A stretch of 58,628 bases of DNA from an uncultured Pseudomonadota bacterium. Lineage in GTDB: Bacteria; Myxococcota_A; UBA796; GCA-2862545. The number at the start of each line of letters is the position of its first letter. The stretch's first letter is position 1. The stretch is from positions 1 through 58,628 of the forward strand of contig CAIOSP010000215.1 of the NCBI GenBank assembly GCA_903861005.1, read 5' to 3'. Below, piece after piece: positions 1 through 36,641 of this stretch. Under the pieces are notes generated by a model. That model did no database searches and was not told the DNA's origin. It was given only the letters and a program-made list of their open reading frames with translations. The position numbers were made by a program, and so were the translations under genes.

Positions 1-1478
1 GCGGCGATCTCGTCCGCGTCGCAGTTCTCGACGGCGTTGGCCCAGAACGGGGCGTCGGGGAACTCGGTGAGCGTGGCGAGGCCGCGCCCCAGCGGGCCCT
101 GGTCCACCGCGCCCTCGGCGGGCCACCACGCGCCGCCGCCCATGCGCGCCAGCACCGCCGCCAGGTCGTAGAGCGTCTGCCCCTGCTCGGCGGGCTGCCG
201 TTCGCGGCCGGGGATCTCGTACTGGCCGGCGTCGACGGCCCCCGCCATCGCCTTGCGCGCGTCGGCATCGCACAGGTAGCGCTCGCCCAGGATGCCCGCG
301 GCGAAGTCCATGTTGTAATTGCTGAAGTTCGACGCGTTCCCAAAGTCGACCAGGTACGCGCGGTCGCGGGCGATCTCGTGCAGGCGACGCTCGGCGATCA
401 GGGTGTCGTTCAGCGCGGCCTCGATCTCCGCGTCCTGCGCGACCATCGACAGCGCGGAAAGGATGCCGAGCGACATCATCGCGTATGGGCCGTTCTGCAC
501 GCCGTCCAGGTAGACGGTGTCGATCGAATTCTCATTGAGCGCGCCGTTCAAGGTCATGCGGCCGTCCGCGTCGCGGACCTCCAGGTCGTAGCCGCTCGCC
601 TGCACGGTCAGCAGGCTGCGCGCGATCGCCGCCGCGTCCGCCTGCATCTGCGCCTTCACCTCGCCTGCGATCGTCGGGTCCTGCGCGATCACCTCCCACG
701 CGCCGCCGTAGCCGAACGCCCAGCCGACGAGCATGTCGCGGCTGCACGAGTCCTCCCACACGTAGTCCGGGTACAGGCCGCCGCTGTTGTCCGCGCGCCA
801 CGTGCCGTTGTTCTTCTCGACCGGGAGCGGCGTGCCCGCGTCGTCGAAGAGCGGGACGGTGTCGACGGTCGAACCGGCGGAGTCCGCGTCGTTGCGCGCG
901 TAGCCGCGCGCGATCACGCCCGGCACGCCGGTGATCGCCGACGCGCGGTGCAGGCCCTCCAGCGCCGCGAGCACCTGTGCGCGCGCTTCATCGACCTCTG
1001 CGCACGGCGCGCCCTCGTCGCGGAGCACGCCGTAGCGGAACGCGTCCGCCGCGATGCCGACGCCCGCGTAGCCGCCCGCGACCTTGGTCCACATGCCCAC
1101 CGTGTCGGTCACCGATCGCCCGGTGACGGCCTCAAAGTCCCAGCCGTCGCCCGCGACGAACGCGTCGATCGCGGCGCGCGCGTTGGCGTCCTCCAGCGGC
1201 ACGGTGAGCTCGCTGTTCACCCCGGTCTGCGCGCTGAACAGCGCGCGGAACAGCCGGTCGTGCCGACGCGCCTTGGCCGCCAGCGGCGCGTCGTAGCCGC
1301 CGTCGCCTTCGCCCGCGATCAGCGCCCCCCGCGCCCGCCCGCCCGTGCCGCACGCGGGCGACGCCTTGAACGTCGTCGGCGCGCAGCCCACGACCGGCGC
1401 CACGTCGGTGTCGGCGTCGCCCGGGTCCGGCGCGCACGCGGCGAGGAAGAGCAGCGTCGACACGAACGAGCGAGGCAT
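1..1478 (-). CDS. Secreted lipoprotein of unknown function (3' end cut by window edge)
   Basis: The frame is open from an ATG at 1478 (minus) to the window edge, giving at least 492 residues; the C terminus is missing. The N terminus is a lipoprotein signal with lipobox LFLAAC (Cys15), followed by a short Asp-rich DADTD linker, so the protein is probably tethered to the envelope. The mature part is rich in Ala, Trp and aromatic residues and has helical, evenly spaced segments such as SRDMLVGWAFGYGGAWEVI. That suggests an alpha/alpha-toroid type fold, but no catalytic signature was recognised. It is divergent from the amino-acid ABC transporter across a 183-bp gap that must hold both promoters. 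The reading frame and lipoprotein call are solid; the function is unknown. Confidence 0.75.
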   Translation of the reverse strand, partial: MPRSFVSTLLFLAACAPDPGDADTDVAPVVGCAPTTFKASPACGTGGRARGALIAGEGDGGYDAPLAAKARRHDRLFRALFSAQTGVNSELTVPLEDANARAAIDAFVAGDGWDFEAVTGRSVTDTVGMWTKVAGGYAGVGIAADAFRYGVLRDEGAPCAEVDEARAQVLAALEGLHRASAITGVPGVIARGYARNDADSAGSTVDTVPLFDDAGTPLPVEKNNGTWRADNSGGLYPDYVWEDSCSRDMLVGWAFGYGGAWEVIAQDPTIAGEVKAQMQADAAAIARSLLTVQASGYDLEVRDADGRMTLNGALNENSIDTVYLDGVQNGPYAMMSLGILSALSMVAQDAEIEAALNDTLIAERRLHEIARDRAYLVDFGNASNFSNYNMDFAAGILGERYLCDADARKAMAGAVDAGQYEIPGRERQPAEQGQTLYDLAAVLARMGGGAWWPAEGAVDQGPLGRGLATLTEFPDAPFWANAVENCDADEIA

Positions 1479-1661
1479 GGGAGCTCCGGGTCCGCAGAGG
1501 ACGCGGCACCGTGGCGGCGTATCGTCCGCGCGCCAGTCGGGCCGCACCCCGGCGTCCGCGACCGGCCCCGGCGACCCATTTTGAGAGGCTTGCCCACTCC
1601 GCGCTTCCCCCACGCCCCCGCTGTGCGATACTCCGCGCGCACTCGCCACCCGGAGGGTCTG

Positions 1662-3242
1662 GTGCGCGCACTCCACCTCGCCGCGACCGCGGCTACCGCG
1701 TGTCTGCTCCTTCCCACCGTCGCCCGCGCGGATGTGCTGGCGGACGTTCGCGCCCGCGGCGAGCTGCAGTGGTGCGCCGACCAGGAAGGCGGCGGCCCTT
1801 ACGTGTACCCGCGTGAGGACGACCCGAACCTGGTGACCGGCTTTGAGTTCGACCTGGCGGCCAAGCTGGCGTCGTACCTGGGCGTGAAGGCCACCTTCGT
1901 GCAGGGCCAGTGGGACAAGCTCCCGGACATGGTCCGCACCGGCAAGTGTGACGTGGTCCTCAACGGCTACGAGTACACGCCCGAGCGCCTGGACGTGCTG
2001 GAAGCCACCGTGCCCTACTACGTGTACGGGCTGCAGATGCTCACCCGCAAGGGCGACACGATCTTCAAGACCTGGGATGACCTGGGCACGCTGCACGACG
2101 AGGTGAAGCCGCGCATCGGCGTGCTCACCGGGTCGGCCGCCGAGACGACGATGATCGACTTCTGCGGCGCCGACAACGCGCGCTGCGAGGCGATCTCCTA
2201 CGACGGCAACACCGACTCCATGCGCGAGGTCGAGACCGGCAAGCTCGACGGCACGCTGCAGGACACGCCCATCGCCAGCTTCTACGCGCCCAACTTCCCC
2301 GGGCTGGTGTTCACCGGCGAGCCGGTCGGGCACGGCTGGTACGTGATGTACGTCGACCACGAGCAGACCGCGCTGCGCGACGCGCTGAACGAGGCGATCA
2401 TCCTGTCGGTGCGCAACGGCGACATCGAGGCGATCGACAAGACCTACGGCATCTGGAACAAGGCGCAGGAGGAGCTGGTCGGCATCACCGAGGCCGGCCG
2501 CTTCTACGGGTTCGAGCGCGCGGTCGACGTGAAGGTCGAGAAGCACGAGACGCCCACCGAGAACACCGTGCGCGAGGACGTCCGCCCGCACGGCTGGGAC
2601 GTGGTCATCCACTACGGCCCGATCCTGGTCCGCTCGGCGGCGCTCACCGTGGTGTTGGCGGTGATCAGCTTCCCCATCGCCATGGCGATCGGGCTGCTGG
2701 TGGCGATCGGCCGCATGTACGGGCCCGCCTGGGCGCGCTGGCCCCTCGCCGCCTACGTCGAGTTCCTGCGCGGCACGCCGCTGATGCTGCAGCTCTACTT
2801 CCTGTTCTTCATGCTGCCTGAGGTGGGCATCGCCATCCCGGCCTTCTGGACGGGCATCATTGGCCTGGCGGTGAACTACTCGGCCTACGAGTCGGAGATC
2901 TACCGCGCGGGCTTGCAGGCCATCCCTCCGGGGCAGATGGAGGCCGCGCTGTCGCTCGGCATGTCGCGCAGCCTGGCCGTGCGACGCATCCTGGTCCCGC
3001 AGGCGGTGCGCATCGTCATCCCGCCGGTAGTGAACGACTTCATCGCGCTGTTCAAGGACACGTCGGTGGTGTCGGTCGTCACGCTGGTGGAGCTGACCAA
3101 GCGCTTCAGCGTGCTGTCGCAGTCCACGCAGGCCACCGTCGAGCTGATGCTCATGACGGCGCTGCTCTACCTGTTGATGAGCTACCCGATGGCCGTGCTG
3201 TCGCGCAGGGTCGAGCGGTCGCTCGGGGTGGTGATCCCATGA
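1662..3242 (+). CDS. Polar amino-acid ABC transporter, fused substrate-binding and permease protein
   Basis: The start is taken as GTG 1662 because GGAGG lies at 1652-1656 and a signal peptide follows directly (RALHLAATAATACLLLPTVARA). A family-3 periplasmic solute-binding domain covers about residues 25-275. A His/Glu-type permease domain covers about 315-520 and carries several membrane helices and the EAA loop (EAALSLGMSRSLAVRRILVPQ), which docks the ATPase. SBP-permease fusions of this kind are known in GlnP-type glutamine/glutamate transporters, where the binding domain stays attached on the outer face of the inner membrane. The stop overlaps the ATPase start by 4 bases (ATGA), so the two are translationally coupled. 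The exact amino acid carried cannot be read from sequence. Confidence 0.9.
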   Translation: MRALHLAATAATACLLLPTVARADVLADVRARGELQWCADQEGGGPYVYPREDDPNLVTGFEFDLAAKLASYLGVKATFVQGQWDKLPDMVRTGKCDVVLNGYEYTPERLDVLEATVPYYVYGLQMLTRKGDTIFKTWDDLGTLHDEVKPRIGVLTGSAAETTMIDFCGADNARCEAISYDGNTDSMREVETGKLDGTLQDTPIASFYAPNFPGLVFTGEPVGHGWYVMYVDHEQTALRDALNEAIILSVRNGDIEAIDKTYGIWNKAQEELVGITEAGRFYGFERAVDVKVEKHETPTENTVREDVRPHGWDVVIHYGPILVRSAALTVVLAVISFPIAMAIGLLVAIGRMYGPAWARWPLAAYVEFLRGTPLMLQLYFLFFMLPEVGIAIPAFWTGIIGLAVNYSAYESEIYRAGLQAIPPGQMEAALSLGMSRSLAVRRILVPQAVRIVIPPVVNDFIALFKDTSVVSVVTLVELTKRFSVLSQSTQATVELMLMTALLYLLMSYPMAVLSRRVERSLGVVIP

Positions 3243-3985
3243 TCTCGGTCCAGGGCTTGGTGAAGAAGCACGGCGACACTGAGGTCCTCAAGGGGATCTC
3301 GCTCGACGTGCCCAAGGGTCAGGTCGACGCGATCTTGGGTCCGTCGGGCGGCGGCAAGAGCACGTTCCTGCGCTGCCTCAACGGCCTGGAGCCGTTCCAG
3401 GGCGGACAGGTGCGCGTCGGCACGCACACGCTCACCGCCGACACGCACGCGCGTCGCGACGCCGACCTGCTGCAGAACGTCCGCAAGACGGTCGGGTTCG
3501 TGTTCCAGCAGTTCAACCTGTTCCCGCACCTCACCGTGATGCAGAACCTGATCGAGGCGCCGATGCATGTGCTCGGCGAGTCGCGCGAGGTTGCGATGGC
3601 GCGCGCCGCGACGCTGCTCGAGCGCGTGGGCCTGGGCCGCAAGATGGACGCGTGGCCCAAGGATCTGTCGGGCGGTCAGCAGCAGCGCGTGGCCATCGCG
3701 CGGACGCTGGTGATGCGGCCCGAGGTCATCCTGTTCGACGAGCCCACGAGCGCGCTCGACCCGGTGATGGCGGGTGAGGTGCTCAAGGTGATGGCCGACC
3801 TGGCGGCCGAGGGCCAGACGATGATCGTCGTCACGCACTCCATGCACTTCGCGCGGCACGTCGCCGACCGCGTGCACGTGTTCGCCGACGGCTACGACGT
3901 CGAGGTCGGACCGCCCGAGCAGGTGTTCGAGGACCCCAAGCACGCCGTGACGCGCTCGTTCCTGCACACCGCCGGCAAGACCTGA
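3239..3985 (+). CDS. Polar amino-acid ABC transporter ATP-binding protein (GlnQ/HisP type)
   Basis: This 248-residue ATPase energises the transporter encoded just upstream, with which it overlaps by 4 bases. Walker A is GPSGGGKST (about residues 34-42), the Q-loop lies in FVFQQFNLFPH, the ABC signature is LSGGQQQRVAIARTL, Walker B with the catalytic Glu is VILFDEPTSALD, and the switch His is in VVTHSM. Length and motif order match the GlnQ/HisP/ArtP family. A gap of about 160 bp separates it from the kinase gene that follows, so that gene may or may not share the transcript. Confidence 0.93.
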   Translation: MISVQGLVKKHGDTEVLKGISLDVPKGQVDAILGPSGGGKSTFLRCLNGLEPFQGGQVRVGTHTLTADTHARRDADLLQNVRKTVGFVFQQFNLFPHLTVMQNLIEAPMHVLGESREVAMARAATLLERVGLGRKMDAWPKDLSGGQQQRVAIARTLVMRPEVILFDEPTSALDPVMAGEVLKVMADLAAEGQTMIVVTHSMHFARHVADRVHVFADGYDVEVGPPEQVFEDPKHAVTRSFLHTAGKT

Positions 3986-4144: not shown

Positions 4145-6673
4145 TTGCTCGATCGCGGCACGCGGCTCGGACGATATGTTCTCGACGCACCGCTCGGCAC
4201 CGGCGCGTCGGGAGAGGTCTGGCGTGCGACGCTGGAGGGCGACCTCGGGTTTCGGCGGGACGTCGCGCTCAAGCTGATCCGCGCCGGCAAGCAGAGCGAG
4301 TCCGACCTGGCCCGCGAGGCGCACCTGGGCGCGGCGCTGCGGCACCCGCACATCGCCACGGTGCTGGAGCTGTTCGTCGCGGACGGCTTCACGGTCATGG
4401 CCATGGAGCTGGTCGACGGCCCTGACCTGATGAGCGTGTTCGACGCGCACCCGCAGGGTCTCCCCGAGGACGTGGTCGCGGCGATCCTGTCGGACCTGGC
4501 GGACGGCTGCGCGTTCGCGCACGAGCTGCGCGACGCGGACGGGCACGCGCTGACCGTGGTGCACCGCGACCTCAAGCCGTCGAACGTACTCATCGACCAC
4601 ACCGGCGTGCTCAAGATTGTCGACTTCGGCATCGCCCGGTCGCGCGTCATGTCCCGCGACACGGCGCCGGGGATGCTGCGCGGCACGCCGTACTACCTGG
4701 CGCCCGAGCTGCTCACCGGCCACGAAGCCACGCCCGCGTCCGATGTGTGGGCGATCGGCGCGATCGCGTACGAGGCGCTGCTCGGCCACAGCCTGATCCC
4801 GGACGGCAGCCTGGCGCAGATCGCCACGTCGATCCGCACGATCTCCTACGACCAGATCGCGCGCGACGTCGCGGCGCGCTCGGAGCGCCTCGCGCCGATC
4901 GTCACCGCGTGCCTGTTTGGCGATCCGTCCGATCGGCCGTCGGCGCGCGCGATCGTCGACGCGCTCGGCGACACCGACGGACGCCCCGCCCTCGCGCGGC
5001 TGGTGGGCGCTGAGACCTCCGGGCCGCGCAACCCGACCCTCACGCTCGAGCAGCCCGAGCCCACCGCGCCGATGGTCCGCAAGCGCTGGGTGGTCGCCTG
5101 CGTCGCGCTCGCCATGCTGGCGTTGTTGGCGTCCCGGGTTCACGTCGTCGTGCCACCCCACGGCGGCGGGGTGCTGCGCATCGCCGACCCGCGCGGACGC
5201 GGCGCGTTCGACCCGTACAACCCCACCAGCACCATGGGCCGGCACGCTTTCGATCTGGTGGTGGAGACCGCCACCCGCATGGGGCCGCACGGCGAGCCCG
5301 AGCCCGGCGTGCTCGCGTCGTGGGGTAGCGACCGCGACTGGATGACCTGGACGCTGCACGTCCGCCCGAACGCGATCTTCCACGCGCACCCGTGCCTGGT
5401 GCACGGTACGCGCCCTGCCGACGCGGAGGACGTCCGCTACTCGCTGCGCCTCGCGATCGAAGCCGGCGCGCTCGACCTACCGCTCGCCGACGGGGACCTG
5501 GACAAGGCGATCACCACCGACGGGGACGCGCTGCGTGTGCAGCTCGACATGCCGTACCCGTTCCTCGCGGAGCGCCTCGCGCGGATCTACGTGATGCCGC
5601 GCGAGCTCGACCACTGCGAGGACATCAAGGCGATCCGGCAACCCGTCGGCACCGGGCCGTTCCGCTTCGACAAGCCGCCGATCGGCGAGACCCTCCACGT
5701 CGTCCGCAACGACACGTGGTGGGGCATGCAGGGCGGCCCCAAGCTGGAAGGCGTGACCTTCGTCACCATCGCGGACCCCGCGCAGGTGCTCGCCGGAATG
5801 CGGGACGGCTCGGTGGACGCGGCCATGCTCCCGGTGGTGGACGGCGTGGTGGACAGCGCGGTCACGCCGCCCGTGCTCGCGCACCCGCTGCCCACCGACA
5901 AGAGCTTCGTCGCCTATGACGGCGGCGACCAGTACACGCTCAAAGGGCTGTACGTCTTCTCGAACCGCCCCGACGGCGTGCTGGACGTGAGGCTGCGCCG
6001 CGCGATCTCGGAGACCATCGACCGAGCCGCCGTGTCCACGGTGAGCGTGAATGTGCGCTACACGCCGACCACGCGCTTCCTCGACCCGAGCTTCCTCGGG
6101 TTTGACGCGTCGGCGCCGCCGTCGGGCTACCCCAACCTGGAACACGCGCGCGCGCTGGTGGCGGAGGTCGGCCGCACGTCGGAGGTCACGATCGGCTCGT
6201 TCCCGAGCGACCGCCCGCTGGTGGACGTGTGGGTCAAGCAGCTCCAGGACATCGGCCTGAACGTGCGCGCCGTGCGCCTGTCGACCGAGTCGCTCCAGCA
6301 GGCGCGCAGCAAGCCGCCCTGCGACCTGGCGCTCATCCAGATCACCGAGCGCGTGTGGGGCGTGGACCCGCTCCCCTTCCTGCTGGCCTTCGTCGAGGAC
6401 CTGGTCCAGCAGGGCACGGCCAGCGAGACCGTCCACACGCGGCTGACGCAGGCCGCGGGCGAGCAGGACCGCGACCGCCGAGCCCAGGACTACTACGCGC
6501 TCATGCGCCAGCTGCGCGAGGAGCTGCCGTTCATCCCCGTCGGCATCGTGAACCCGCCGTACCGCGGCGACACATGGCTGATCTCCAACGCGGTCACCGG
6601 GCTGGCGGTGCCGCAGGCCGGGACGGTGCGCGACGAGCTCTGGACCCACTTCGGCGACGTCGGGTTCAAGTAG
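4145..6673 (+). CDS. Transmembrane Ser/Thr protein kinase with extracytoplasmic family-5 solute-binding domain
   Basis: Begins at TTG 4145, directly before the kinase domain. Residues 8-280 form a Hanks-type kinase: G-loop LGTGASGEV (17-25), ATP-binding Lys in VALK (K43), catalytic HRDLKPSN (D142), DFG (D160) and APE-like LAPEL. All catalytic residues are present, so it should be active. One hydrophobic helix follows basic residues at about 315-331. Residues 341-842 then resemble an OppA/DppA-type (SBP_bac_5) peptide-binding protein: GGVLRIADP, DPYNP, a TWTLHVRPNAIFH segment and GTGPFRF. The expected topology is kinase inside and binding domain outside, making this a candidate receptor kinase for peptides or similar solutes. 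It follows an amino-acid ABC transporter operon on the same strand. Confidence 0.88.
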   Translation: MLDRGTRLGRYVLDAPLGTGASGEVWRATLEGDLGFRRDVALKLIRAGKQSESDLAREAHLGAALRHPHIATVLELFVADGFTVMAMELVDGPDLMSVFDAHPQGLPEDVVAAILSDLADGCAFAHELRDADGHALTVVHRDLKPSNVLIDHTGVLKIVDFGIARSRVMSRDTAPGMLRGTPYYLAPELLTGHEATPASDVWAIGAIAYEALLGHSLIPDGSLAQIATSIRTISYDQIARDVAARSERLAPIVTACLFGDPSDRPSARAIVDALGDTDGRPALARLVGAETSGPRNPTLTLEQPEPTAPMVRKRWVVACVALAMLALLASRVHVVVPPHGGGVLRIADPRGRGAFDPYNPTSTMGRHAFDLVVETATRMGPHGEPEPGVLASWGSDRDWMTWTLHVRPNAIFHAHPCLVHGTRPADAEDVRYSLRLAIEAGALDLPLADGDLDKAITTDGDALRVQLDMPYPFLAERLARIYVMPRELDHCEDIKAIRQPVGTGPFRFDKPPIGETLHVVRNDTWWGMQGGPKLEGVTFVTIADPAQVLAGMRDGSVDAAMLPVVDGVVDSAVTPPVLAHPLPTDKSFVAYDGGDQYTLKGLYVFSNRPDGVLDVRLRRAISETIDRAAVSTVSVNVRYTPTTRFLDPSFLGFDASAPPSGYPNLEHARALVAEVGRTSEVTIGSFPSDRPLVDVWVKQLQDIGLNVRAVRLSTESLQQARSKPPCDLALIQITERVWGVDPLPFLLAFVEDLVQQGTASETVHTRLTQAAGEQDRDRRAQDYYALMRQLREELPFIPVGIVNPPYRGDTWLISNAVTGLAVPQAGTVRDELWTHFGDVGFK

Positions 6674-13336: not shown

Positions 13337-15931
13337 TCAGCCGCCGACGACGTTGAAGCTAAAGCTGCCGGTGTTGCCGTACGCGTCGGTCACGATGACC
13401 GAGTAGACGTCCTCGCCGGCCGGGAACGCGATCCAGGTGCGGCCGTTCTGCGGGTCCGGCGCCGCGACGGTGTCGGTGTGCTCGCCTGCGCTGGTGGTCC
13501 AGTCCACGGTCAGGTCGCCGCGGAGGGGGTTGTCACCCTTGGACTGACCGGCGATGTCGATCAGGCGGTAGCCGTGGTCCGGGCCGCGCAGGCTGGTCCA
13601 CAGGCCGCCCGTGTCCGGCGTGATCGTCACGTCGGCGGGGAGGACCTCGAACTCCTTGCTGGTGAACTCGTAGGTGGACGTGGGCCACGGGTAGTGCGTG
13701 GCGCCGCCCGTGTAGCTGTGGCCGTACACGTGCAGGCGGTACATGCCGAGCTCCATGCTGGTGCGATCGCGAACGTCGCCCACGGCCTGGTAGATGGCCC
13801 ACCAGTAGTGGGTCTGCTCGGCGCTCGCGGGGAACAGCGGGTCGGGCGTCCAGCCGATCGCGATCTCCTGGAGGTCGTCGTTGATCTCGCGGCCGGTCGG
13901 CGTGGTCACAGGGGCCCAGTCGCCGCCGTCCGCCTTGTGCTCAAGCACGATGCGCGGGTCGTCCACGCCAGGGTCGCCGCCGATCCAGCCGATCTGGACG
14001 ATGCCGTCCAGGCGCTTGACCTGGTCTGGGATGTCGAGGTCGCGCGTGAACTTGGGCGGGATCCAGTAGTACTCGGGGACCGTGGCGTTGGTCAGCACCG
14101 TGCCGGCGTTCGGCGACAGGTCAGGCGCCTCCGTCTCCAGCGGCCACTCGGGGTAGGCCTGGATGCCGTCGCGGGCCTTGACGAAGGGCTGCGCCTTGTC
14201 GTCCATCAGGCTGCTCTTCACGTACTTCATCATCGACTCGACGATGTACTCAGCGCCCAGCGGACCCCAGATGGAGATGTCCGGCTCGTAGCCGCCGCGC
14301 AGCCAGTCCTCGGCGGGGAGCAGGTAGCCGTCGTGGTGCATCGAGTAGCCGAACGCGACGGTGTCCTCGATGCCGAGCTCCTTGGCGCGGTGCTTCCAGG
14401 TCTCCTCAAGCAGATGGACGGGCTCGCCGGGCAGGAAGCCGAGCAGCACGTTCGACGCGTCGACGTTGGTGCCGTCCGCGCGGTGCACGGGGATGCCGTT
14501 GAGGCTGCTGGCCGCGGTGTAGGTGGCGCGGAAGCCGTCCAGCGGAAGCGAGGTCTGCTCGTCCGACAGCAGGAAGAAGGACTTGAGCAGGATGGTCATG
14601 AACTCCACCTGCATGCAGGTGGTGTACTCGGGCGCGAAGGTGTTCATGCCGCCGACGGGCAGGTCAAAGTCACCGGAGCCGCAGAAGACCGCGCCCCACT
14701 GCGTGTTCCACTCGTCAAGCGGCGAGATGATCTGGCCGTTCTCGTCGTAGACCTTGTCGTCGGAGTACCAGTTCGGGTTGGTCTCGACCTTGGGGTAGAA
14801 CCAGTCGACCGTGCCGTTGCGGGTGACCTTCACGGCGTCGTGGTTCATCTCCACCGGGCGGGAGAGGGTCTCCATCGTGATGGGGCCCTTGGTGGTGGCC
14901 GTCGCCTCGCGCAGCGCCAGGATCGGGTCGCGGGCGTAGATGCCGACCGTCTCCATACGCGCCCAGCCGTCGTCCGAGCCGCCCACGCTGGCGTCGCCCG
15001 CCGCGGTGTTGAGGAACATCGCGATCATCGGCGTGTCGAAGGACTCCTCGAGCTCGCGCTCCACCATGACCGTGGCGTCGCCGGTGGCCATGGAGCTGGA
15101 GTCGTCCTCGACGTAGGGGTGCATGCCCCAGCCGACGACCATCGCGATCGGGTCGGTCGAATCAGCCTTGTCGATGCGGAGCACGTTCAGGTACGGGTCC
15201 TTGGCGCCCTCCTCCGCCGCCGTCATGTCGGAGAAGATGTCCAGGCCTTCAAAGCCGTTGGCCGGATCCGGGTCATTCTCGGGGCGACGGTCATGGTAGA
15301 CCTTGTCCGCGTCCCAGTCCTTGGCGATGCCCATGCCGACCGACGCGGGCTCCAGGTTCTGGTAGGCCTTGTAGGCGACCTGCGCGATCTGCTCGATCAT
15401 GCGGGTCTCGTTCTCCTTGTCGAACTTGTCGTGGCCCAGGAAGAAGCCGGTCGACTGCGAGAAGGTGCCAAAGGAGCTGTGGTTGTGGTTGCCGCTGTGG
15501 GTGACCATGCCGCTCAGCTCTTCGCCGGTCAGCTCCTCGAGGCGGGTGGTGATGCCGTCCACCAGGCCGTCGAACGAGTAGATGACGTCGGTCTTCGTCA
15601 TGACCAGGTGCTGGCCTTGGCCGTTGGTCAGCCACACGACCTTGAGCGCCGGACGAAGGTGCACGCCGGTGCTCTCGACGAACGCCGTGGCGTACTGGCT
15701 GTCGCGGTCGTCCTGCTTGGACATGCTGCCCATACAGCCGCAGCGCGCCGTGTAACCGGAGAGCGGCGTGCCGATCGGGAGGTGGAGCGAGTCCTCAGCG
15801 GCGCCCGCCATCAGCGTGCCGGCCACCAGCGGCGGGGCCTCGACGTCGGTGTCGCCCGCAGGGTCATCCTTGCCATTGCAGCCGGCCGCCAAGAGGCCGA
15901 GCAGACCCACACCCATCAAGTAACGGACCAT
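13337..15931 (-). CDS. Neutral/alkaline ceramidase-like lipoprotein amidase
   Basis: ATG 15931 gives an 864-residue protein with a lipoprotein signal (LLGLLAAGC, Cys18) and an Asp-rich GDTD linker. The body resembles neutral ceramidases, zinc amidases that split ceramide into sphingosine and fatty acid. It has the start motif LPIGTPLSGY, the LVMTKTDVIYSFDGL segment, a His-rich zinc-site-like THSGNHNHSSFG (compare THTHSGPGG) and FLNTAAGDASVGG, at the place of the catalytic-serine motif NxGDVSPN. Both motifs deviate from the classic form, so substrate and activity are uncertain. The C terminus ends in Ig-like beta-rich sequence (VYSVIVTDAYGNTGSFSF). It is divergent from the lipoprotein at 16161 across a 229-bp promoter region. 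Confidence 0.72.
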   Translation of the reverse strand: MVRYLMGVGLLGLLAAGCNGKDDPAGDTDVEAPPLVAGTLMAGAAEDSLHLPIGTPLSGYTARCGCMGSMSKQDDRDSQYATAFVESTGVHLRPALKVVWLTNGQGQHLVMTKTDVIYSFDGLVDGITTRLEELTGEELSGMVTHSGNHNHSSFGTFSQSTGFFLGHDKFDKENETRMIEQIAQVAYKAYQNLEPASVGMGIAKDWDADKVYHDRRPENDPDPANGFEGLDIFSDMTAAEEGAKDPYLNVLRIDKADSTDPIAMVVGWGMHPYVEDDSSSMATGDATVMVERELEESFDTPMIAMFLNTAAGDASVGGSDDGWARMETVGIYARDPILALREATATTKGPITMETLSRPVEMNHDAVKVTRNGTVDWFYPKVETNPNWYSDDKVYDENGQIISPLDEWNTQWGAVFCGSGDFDLPVGGMNTFAPEYTTCMQVEFMTILLKSFFLLSDEQTSLPLDGFRATYTAASSLNGIPVHRADGTNVDASNVLLGFLPGEPVHLLEETWKHRAKELGIEDTVAFGYSMHHDGYLLPAEDWLRGGYEPDISIWGPLGAEYIVESMMKYVKSSLMDDKAQPFVKARDGIQAYPEWPLETEAPDLSPNAGTVLTNATVPEYYWIPPKFTRDLDIPDQVKRLDGIVQIGWIGGDPGVDDPRIVLEHKADGGDWAPVTTPTGREINDDLQEIAIGWTPDPLFPASAEQTHYWWAIYQAVGDVRDRTSMELGMYRLHVYGHSYTGGATHYPWPTSTYEFTSKEFEVLPADVTITPDTGGLWTSLRGPDHGYRLIDIAGQSKGDNPLRGDLTVDWTTSAGEHTDTVAAPDPQNGRTWIAFPAGEDVYSVIVTDAYGNTGSFSFNVVGG

Positions 15932-16160
15932 CGCGCTCTCCACGTTCGGGCTGGTCGTCGGGCCTCGCCTCGGGGCCCACCACGCCAGGACGCAGCAAGG
16001 TACCACAACCGTCCGACGCGCCGCCAGCAGACTTGTGGATCCGGCGTCAGGAACCGGTGAGACCGTAGATGGGCCGCCGCTCCGACAGGCGGAATGCAAG
16101 CCTGTCTTGACGGCAAGCGCCCGAACCTTCTATGTCGCACCCGAACGATGGAGGATCTTC

Positions 16161-34900: not shown

Positions 34901-35006
34901 AGGAGCCTCCAGCAGGGATCCGACATGTCACACCTGAATCCAGGTGGGACCAGTGGCGTCCCCGGTGCTATACCCAGGCGGCCGCTGGCGCGACCAGGGA
35001 GTCCTC

Positions 35007-36641
35007 GTGGGCCGCAACGAGACCAAGAGACTCGGCAAGTACATGGTGCTCGAACGCGTGGCCGAAGGCCCGCTGACCGAGGTCCTACGTGCACGCCTGG
35101 ACGGAATCGCTGGCTTTTCCAGGATCTTCGCCATCAAGCGGCTGCGCCCGGAGATCGCGCGCCACGCCGACGCGCAGGCTTTGGTGGAGGCGCGCGCGCG
35201 TGAAGCGGCCGTGCTGTCGCACGGAAACATCGTCCAGCTGCTCGATCTTTCTCGCGAGAACGGCGTCCCGTACGTCGTGCTGGAGTGGGTCGACGGCTGG
35301 AGCCTGACCACCCTGCTCGCCCGCGCGGACGAGCTGTCGGTCACCCTACCGATCGGTCACGCCACCTGGATCGGCCTGCAGGTGCTCAAGGCGCTGGAGT
35401 ACGCGCACCATCGCGAGATCGTGCGCGACGGCGCGCCGGTGGTGCTGCGCATGGTGCACGGCGCGGTCGGCACGGACGACGTGCTGATCAGCCGCGGCGG
35501 CGAGGTGAAGGTCACCGACTTTGGCCTGGCGCGCGCCACGGATGAGGTCTCCAAGCTCGACCCGACGTTGATCCCCGCGCGCCCGGAGCGCCGCGCGCCT
35601 GAGCTCGCCACGTCCGGTGAGCCGACCATCGCGTCGGACCTGTGGGGCGCCGCGCGCGTCGTTCGCGCCTGTCTGGTCAGCACGGTGCTGGACGACCTGC
35701 CGTTCGAGCCCCTCCAAGAGCTGCGCCCGGACGTTCCGGAAGCGCTCGCCAAGACGCTCGACGCCGCGCTGTCCGTCGACCCGGCCGACCGCCCCGCGAA
35801 CGCGACCGAGATGAAGGACGCGTTCACCGACCTGCTGCATGACCTGGGCGACGTCACCGACGCCGACACCCTCATCCGCTGGATCACCGACGCCGGCCTG
35901 CCGCCGGTGCCGCCGATCGCCGACGACCTCCCGGACGCCGACCTCCCCTTGTTCGAGCAGACCGACGAGTCCGCCCCGGGGGCCCGCGGCGCCGAAGACG
36001 AGAACACGTCGCCGGTCAGCATGGACGAGCACATCATCCTCGACGAGGACGCGCGCACCCAGGTGCAGTCCGCCGTGCGCCCGGACGGCAAGCCGGCCGC
36101 CAAGTCCACCTGGGAGGAGAACGGCGCCACCCAGGTCAACCCGGAGCTGGCCCGCAAGCTCTCCGAGATGCGCGAGCAGCGCGGCGTGGGCTTTGAAGGC
36201 GCGGCGGATGCCACCCGCATGCGCAACACCCCCGGCGACGTCGACCTGGGTCAGCCCGACGACGCCCCGCCCTCGCAGGCCGCGTGGCGCAGCGGCGTGT
36301 GGGCCGGCGTGGTCACCCTGTGCGTGGGCGTGCTGCTCGGCGGCGTGGGCGCCGCGCTCTGGGGCCGCGCCGCCGGCATCACCGTGAACGACCCCATGCT
36401 CGACGTGCGCACCGCGCCGGAAGTGCAGATGACCGTCACCGTGGACGGCAACACCATTCAGGGCCCCACCACCCTCACGCCGGGCGCGCACCAGCTGCGC
36501 GTCGACGTCGCGGGGGCCGCGCCGTGGCTGGTCGACCTCACGCTCCAGGCTGGCGAGTACCGGCTGATGATGGTCGAGGCGAACCGCGTCACCGTCACGC
36601 CGCCCACCCCGACCGACGCCGCCGCGCCGAGCCCGCAATGA
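35007..36641 (+). CDS. Ser/Thr pseudokinase with membrane helix and PEGA-like domain
   Basis: GTG 35007 has AGGGAG 5 bases upstream; 544 residues. A kinase fold covers about 10-285: FAIK with Lys44, hinge VVLEWVDG, DFG at 171-173. The glycine loop is degenerate (VAEGPLTEV), and the catalytic HRDLKPxN is replaced by HGAVGTDDV (151-159), lacking the catalytic Asp. It is therefore probably inactive and may act as a scaffold or ATP sensor. A charged linker with TQV/ATR-rich segments of possible phospho-acceptor character leads to a helix near 430-455. An extracytoplasmic PEGA-like beta domain (VTVDGNTIQGPTTLTPGAHQLRVDV) follows. It lies 34 bp before the prenyltransferase gene. Confidence 0.82.
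   Translation: MGRNETKRLGKYMVLERVAEGPLTEVLRARLDGIAGFSRIFAIKRLRPEIARHADAQALVEARAREAAVLSHGNIVQLLDLSRENGVPYVVLEWVDGWSLTTLLARADELSVTLPIGHATWIGLQVLKALEYAHHREIVRDGAPVVLRMVHGAVGTDDVLISRGGEVKVTDFGLARATDEVSKLDPTLIPARPERRAPELATSGEPTIASDLWGAARVVRACLVSTVLDDLPFEPLQELRPDVPEALAKTLDAALSVDPADRPANATEMKDAFTDLLHDLGDVTDADTLIRWITDAGLPPVPPIADDLPDADLPLFEQTDESAPGARGAEDENTSPVSMDEHIILDEDARTQVQSAVRPDGKPAAKSTWEENGATQVNPELARKLSEMREQRGVGFEGAADATRMRNTPGDVDLGQPDDAPPSQAAWRSGVWAGVVTLCVGVLLGGVGAALWGRAAGITVNDPMLDVRTAPEVQMTVTVDGNTIQGPTTLTPGAHQLRVDVAGAAPWLVDLTLQAGEYRLMMVEANRVTVTPPTPTDAAAPSPQ

Follow-up and report, generated by a model that had tools for sequence, protein, structure and literature searches.

The window, by which we mean the whole stretch of 58,628 nucleotides analysed, carries near its start a gene in which a Ser/Thr kinase and a solute-binding protein (SBP) domain are joined in one chain, directly behind the genes of an amino-acid transporter. 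The features of this locus are given below, with counts over the ten members of the SBP subfamily described further on; G000 is the genome to which the window belongs and G001 a second genome of the same genus.

378..3242, plus strand: open reading frame with an amino-acid-type SBP_bac_3 domain (PF00497, residues 474-690) and a BPD_transp_1 permease domain (PF00528, residues 769-949)
3239..3985, plus strand: ABC ATPase of an amino-acid transporter (TcyN/EhuA/GlnQ-like; PF00005)
4145..6673, plus strand: fused receptor-kinase gene, 842 aa, TTG start, with a 97% identical full-length copy in G001
4178..4960, plus strand: Hanks-type Ser/Thr kinase domain, residues 12-272 (Pfam PF00069)
5072..5146, plus strand: single transmembrane helix, residues ~310-334 (hydropathy scan)
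5153..6661, plus strand: C-terminal family-5 solute-binding domain, residues 337-839 (PF00496; subfamily profile)
5378..5395, plus strand: F-H-A-H-P-C signature, residues 412-417, with C417 in 10/10 members
5615..5617, plus strand: C491, the second invariant cysteine, in 10/10 members

An in-frame TGA stands immediately 5' of the TTG start of the 842-codon frame. The N-terminal part matches the Pfam Pkinase model almost end to end (E 4.2e-43, 148 bits against a cut-off of 31.7, profile positions 2-259 of 263), and its translation contains K43 (VALK), D142 (HRD) and D160 (DFG) in addition to a glycine loop (18) and an APE motif (186). The original prediction of a complete Hanks kinase therefore holds and, judged from the intact domain and these catalytic residues, the kinase is apparently active; the closest solved kinase structure is PknA, and the bacterial ones also include PknB and StkP. 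The hydropathy scan found only one hydrophobic segment between the kinase and SBP halves, as expected if one helix joins them, and the positive-inside charge bias of the protein is weak. Behind the helix, SBP_bac_5 is matched at residues 384-736 (E 3.3e-34, 119 bits against a cut-off of 32.4, profile positions 1-349 of 368), and the subfamily profile extends over 337-839, the length of a full cluster-C SBP of ~500 residues. Both halves of the proposed domain search, Pkinase plus SBP_bac_5, thus scored far over their curated cut-offs, and the family-5 domain has the predicted size. Neither PF00497 (SBP_bac_3, family 3) nor PASTA repeats were matched on the 842-aa protein in Pfam, and the NCBIfam PASTA kinase equivalog NF033483 reached only 133 bits against a cut-off of 450. 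The separate signal peptide or lipobox of an exported importer SBP is likewise absent, the SBP domain being tethered by the helix behind the kinase.

Homologues were sought in 379 genomes of the phylum, using the SBP half as query and then a profile of that half; with the full-length protein as query, mostly other kinases were retrieved. A sharp gap in score separates nine genomes (E 1e-142 to 1e-206) from the next (1e-43). Kinase-fused members among the nine occur in G000, G001, G017, G106, G234 and G157, the gene of G157 running to the contig end. Searches of ten further single genomes added G384 as well as G386, which is apparently the genome already listed as G234. G384, reached via a kinase match, supplied a tenth and divergent member, and in G017, G106, G234, G157 and G384 alike the homologue is a fusion of kinase, helix and SBP. 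Other arrangements are found at three loci, as follows.

G292, L151:6312-8792, minus strand: cyclase fusion, with a guanylate/adenylate cyclase domain (PF00211, E 2e-20), one helix and a Cys-marked SBP_bac_5 domain
G283, L152:2517-4877, plus strand: exported architecture, with a lipobox-like start (LCIGC), ~260 residues without a Pfam match and a Cys-marked SBP domain
G016, L150:9033-11989: split locus, in which the kinase with its helix ends in a new tail and an SBP remnant lies ~500 bases later in another frame

The G292 protein is a possible cyclase receptor sharing the same sensor, while the G016 locus, with a small minus-strand ORF between kinase and SBP remnant, resembles a fusion that has been broken up, or an error of assembly. 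The SBP domain lies only C-terminal to other domains in all ten members, and a helix is found at the equivalent position in every kinase- or cyclase-fused one. Its N-terminal partner is a Ser/Thr kinase in eight genomes (one disrupted), a cyclase in one and a lipoprotein-like N-terminus in one; these eight genomes, from the phylum search plus G384, are those in which the kinase-SBP architecture, whose taxonomic spread had been named as a point to check, was seen. Whole-class searches in the class of G000 (71 genomes) and that of G106 (57 genomes) gave no additional members, and none was found outside the phylum in 346 genomes of a group reached via an Actinomycetes record, with four candidates scored per genome. 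A tblastn search of plasmids returned just weak, ~25% identical ordinary SBPs. Long SBP frames in G307, G336, G364, G011, G270, G273, G061 and G330 appeared fusion-like by frame length and were rejected as candidates; those of G364, G011 and G270 held no second domain in Pfam, and what precedes their SBP looks like a spurious extension of an ordinary protein of this kind.

The ten SBP domains are marked by the signature F-x-x-H-[PKR]-C, which reads HPTC in the divergent G384, and their alignment contains only two conserved cysteine columns, C417 and C491. These two cysteines occur together in every member (10/10) and in none of 103 other distinct SBP_bac_5 sequences, relative to most of which the signature loop is an insertion; H415 is likewise present in 10/10. 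When a tree was built with 60 other SBPs by a quick method, some of its branches being long, the ten members make up one side of a branch with an SH-aLRT of 100. C417 and C491 probably form a disulfide, which would stiffen the loop carrying the signature of the subfamily. An AlphaFold2 single-sequence model of residues 336-842, made without an alignment, had a mean pLDDT of 37 and a pTM of 0.26 and was discarded, and a two-lobed fold of the SBP domain is instead suggested by profile matches. The top solved-structure matches of this half were 8upi (a peptide SBP), NikA, heme-binding protein A and DppA, and these nearest structures do not fix the ligand. Furthermore, the W-G-x-D-P (WxxD) region is two residues shorter than that of NikA in the profile alignment; given this shorter region and the conserved cysteine pair, a canonical oligopeptide ligand or pocket should not be assumed.

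We consider it likely (probability roughly 0.78) that the gene encodes a one-component transmembrane receptor kinase whose periplasmic SBP_bac_5 domain is a sensor not used for import. We infer its topology, coupling and targets as follows: the N-terminal Hanks kinase would be cytoplasmic, one helix would span the inner membrane, and on the periplasmic side the C-terminal SBP_bac_5 domain would sense ligand while staying permanently tethered. When a ligand binds, the two lobes of the SBP would close, and closure would bring about dimerisation or a change of orientation, relayed via the helix, that alters kinase activity towards putative Ser/Thr targets. An extracytoplasmic SBP is supported by the lipobox-like homologue of G283, and the conserved cysteine pair is also consistent with it. 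That the SBP is probably a sensor follows from the occurrence of the Cys-marked group only in receptor-like or exported proteins, and not in importers.

Less probable, yet the strongest of the alternatives, is that the SBP domain takes up no free solute in its cleft and serves as a periplasmic interaction, redox or metal module, with the H-P-C loop and C491 sensing a metal or the thiol state, or providing a docking site for a partner protein. The invariance of H415, C417 and C491, the restriction of the cysteine pair to this subfamily, the lack of any other conserved cysteine and the presence of NikA and heme-binding protein A among the top structural matches all favour such a module; the cysteine pair is, however, explicable by a plain structural disulfide. 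Two neighbouring genes also point in this direction. In G017, 30 nt separate the fusion from a downstream thioredoxin-like gene (L147:5143-5777), and in G016 an NDH-2-type reductase (L150:7735-9036) shares 4 nt with the start of the kinase gene; these may reflect a redox link or chance, and the neighbours vary among loci, which weighs against reading much into them.

The neighbourhood of the gene in the window bears on a further alternative. On the same strand, immediately upstream and across a gap of 159 nt, stands the transporter. As originally described, it is an amino-acid transporter whose binding protein is fused to its permease; the ATPase follows. The permease is EhuD/cystine-permease-like, and the ATPase scored 298 bits with NCBIfam TcyN, under the cut-off of 406. 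The first ~430 codons of the permease frame are without a domain, and its true start is probably well inside. The position of this transporter is what would favour a transceptor, in which an ABC importer would still be supplied by the SBP domain and regulated by the kinase on the same polypeptide. We regard this as improbable, since the transporter already has its own fused SBP_bac_3 and is kept only in G000 and G001, being absent at the other fusion loci, and since family-5 SBPs serve Opp/Dpp permeases. No such permease was recognised beside any member examined, among neighbouring ORFs that were partly Pfam-scanned and with short contigs in G157, G283 and G017. In the 96.7%-complete G000 genome, OppB_N (PF19300) and OppC_N (PF12911) gave 0 matches, with controls positive in 11 of 14 genomes. 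The G000 genome has two SBP_bac_5 proteins, and the second, a stand-alone one (C45:129947-131359), is not beside permease genes and adjoins an FAD amine-oxidase-like gene. Together with the occurrence of the SBP subfamily on a cyclase, the lack of an Opp/Dpp permease nearby and in the genome agrees with the predicted role of the domain as a ligand sensor and not as part of an importer. Of the proposed direct receptor from nutrient to phosphorylation, the sensor reading is supported, whereas the link to a nutrient is no more than plausible, as it relied solely on a transporter neighbour confined to the genus.

The contig comes from a metagenome-assembled genome and the kinase/SBP pair is disrupted in G016, but an assembly chimera or a decaying gene without function is scarcely credible here, as the gene is present in separate genomes, at 97% identity in G001 and at 22-37% in others, with the fusion recurring in diverged genomes, and as the dN/dS between G000 and G001 is about 0.14 for the kinase and about 0.15 for the SBP half (range about 0.14-0.16). 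This conservation at full length and low dN/dS indicate a maintained gene with both halves under purifying selection.

The kinase halves form no single clade in the best tree, in which those of G000, G001, G016 and G017 group together (96) and those of G106/G234, G157 and G384 are placed elsewhere. This tree suggests that the sensor was fused more than once, to separate kinase lineages, but a topology with one kinase clade is not rejected (AU p 0.10); the subfamily is in any case fused to at least two output types, kinase and cyclase. For the congeners G106 and G234, identity is 93% in the kinase, with a dN/dS of 0.16, compared with 59% and 0.71 in the SBP, a pattern that would be expected of a changing ligand with a constant output. 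The SBP divergence could also partly reflect relaxed constraint, given its dN/dS, or recombination.

A broader and more tentative reading, which we put forward as possible, is that an SBP_bac_5 lineage left transport entirely and turned into a portable, Cys-marked periplasmic sensor. In Myxococcota-type bacteria it would have been attached on more than one occasion to different outputs, namely Hanks kinases from more than one lineage, a nucleotide cyclase and a lipoprotein, and its ligand may be metal- or redox-linked and not a peptide. Of this reading, the clade, the cysteine pair, the variety of outputs and the missing permease are observed; the metal- or redox-linked ligand class is speculation.

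Several known systems share part of this design. A Ser/Thr kinase of S. coelicolor (gi|21223285) with a Glu/Gln-type solute-binding domain, for which amino-acid sensing was proposed, and a Nostoc kinase with an ANF-receptor domain were described in 2005 (Krupa and Srinivasan 2005, PMC1262709). Like the protein studied here, they carry a Hanks kinase on the same chain as a solute-binding domain of periplasmic type, but theirs is a Glu/Gln-type (family 3) or ANF-receptor domain, whereas here it is a full-length SBP_bac_5 with the cysteine pair of its subfamily. In the GlnH-GlnX-PknG system of Actinobacteria, an exported SBP for Asp/Glu (GlnH) controls a Ser/Thr kinase according to external solute through GlnX, a membrane relay with four membrane segments (PMC9769921); those are three separate proteins, in contrast to one 842-residue chain with an SBP of another family. 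The transcription factors SgrR and DsvR also use SBP_bac_5 as a sensor-type domain and not for import (PMC13060122), although with an N-terminal HTH output and, as far as reported, no membrane helix between, unlike the membrane-spanning protein with kinase output described here. Kinase-SBP fusions (family 3) have therefore been known since 2005, and the newer part is the sensor-only, Cys-marked subfamily common to a cyclase. In the literature searched, outside which most subscription papers lie, we found no published description of a fusion of Pkinase and SBP_bac_5.

The layout of a cytoplasmic Hanks kinase, one helix and an external sensor is that of the PknB/Stk1 PASTA receptor kinases, with SBP_bac_5 in place of the PASTA repeats. 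By profile, the external domain is nearest among solved structures to the NikA/DppA-type cluster-C binding proteins, which differ in that they are importer subunits, either free or anchored by a lipid, and lack both the HPC insertion and the cysteine pair. For almost every bacterial Hanks receptor kinase other than those of the PASTA group, no external ligand is known. Members of the SBP_bac_5 family are often purified with their ligands, and identification of a ligand is therefore directly testable for a kinase carrying such a domain. The G292 cyclase, which carries this sensor too, provides a second readout for a binding-protein lineage that apparently serves signalling only.

Elsewhere in the window, a second Ser/Thr kinase frame (34944-36641, plus strand, 565 aa) is divergent and matches Pkinase with an E of 8e-17. 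A 920-aa frame at 13337-16099 on the minus strand shows a weak match to the N-terminal domain of neutral/alkaline ceramidase (PF04734, E 1e-8).
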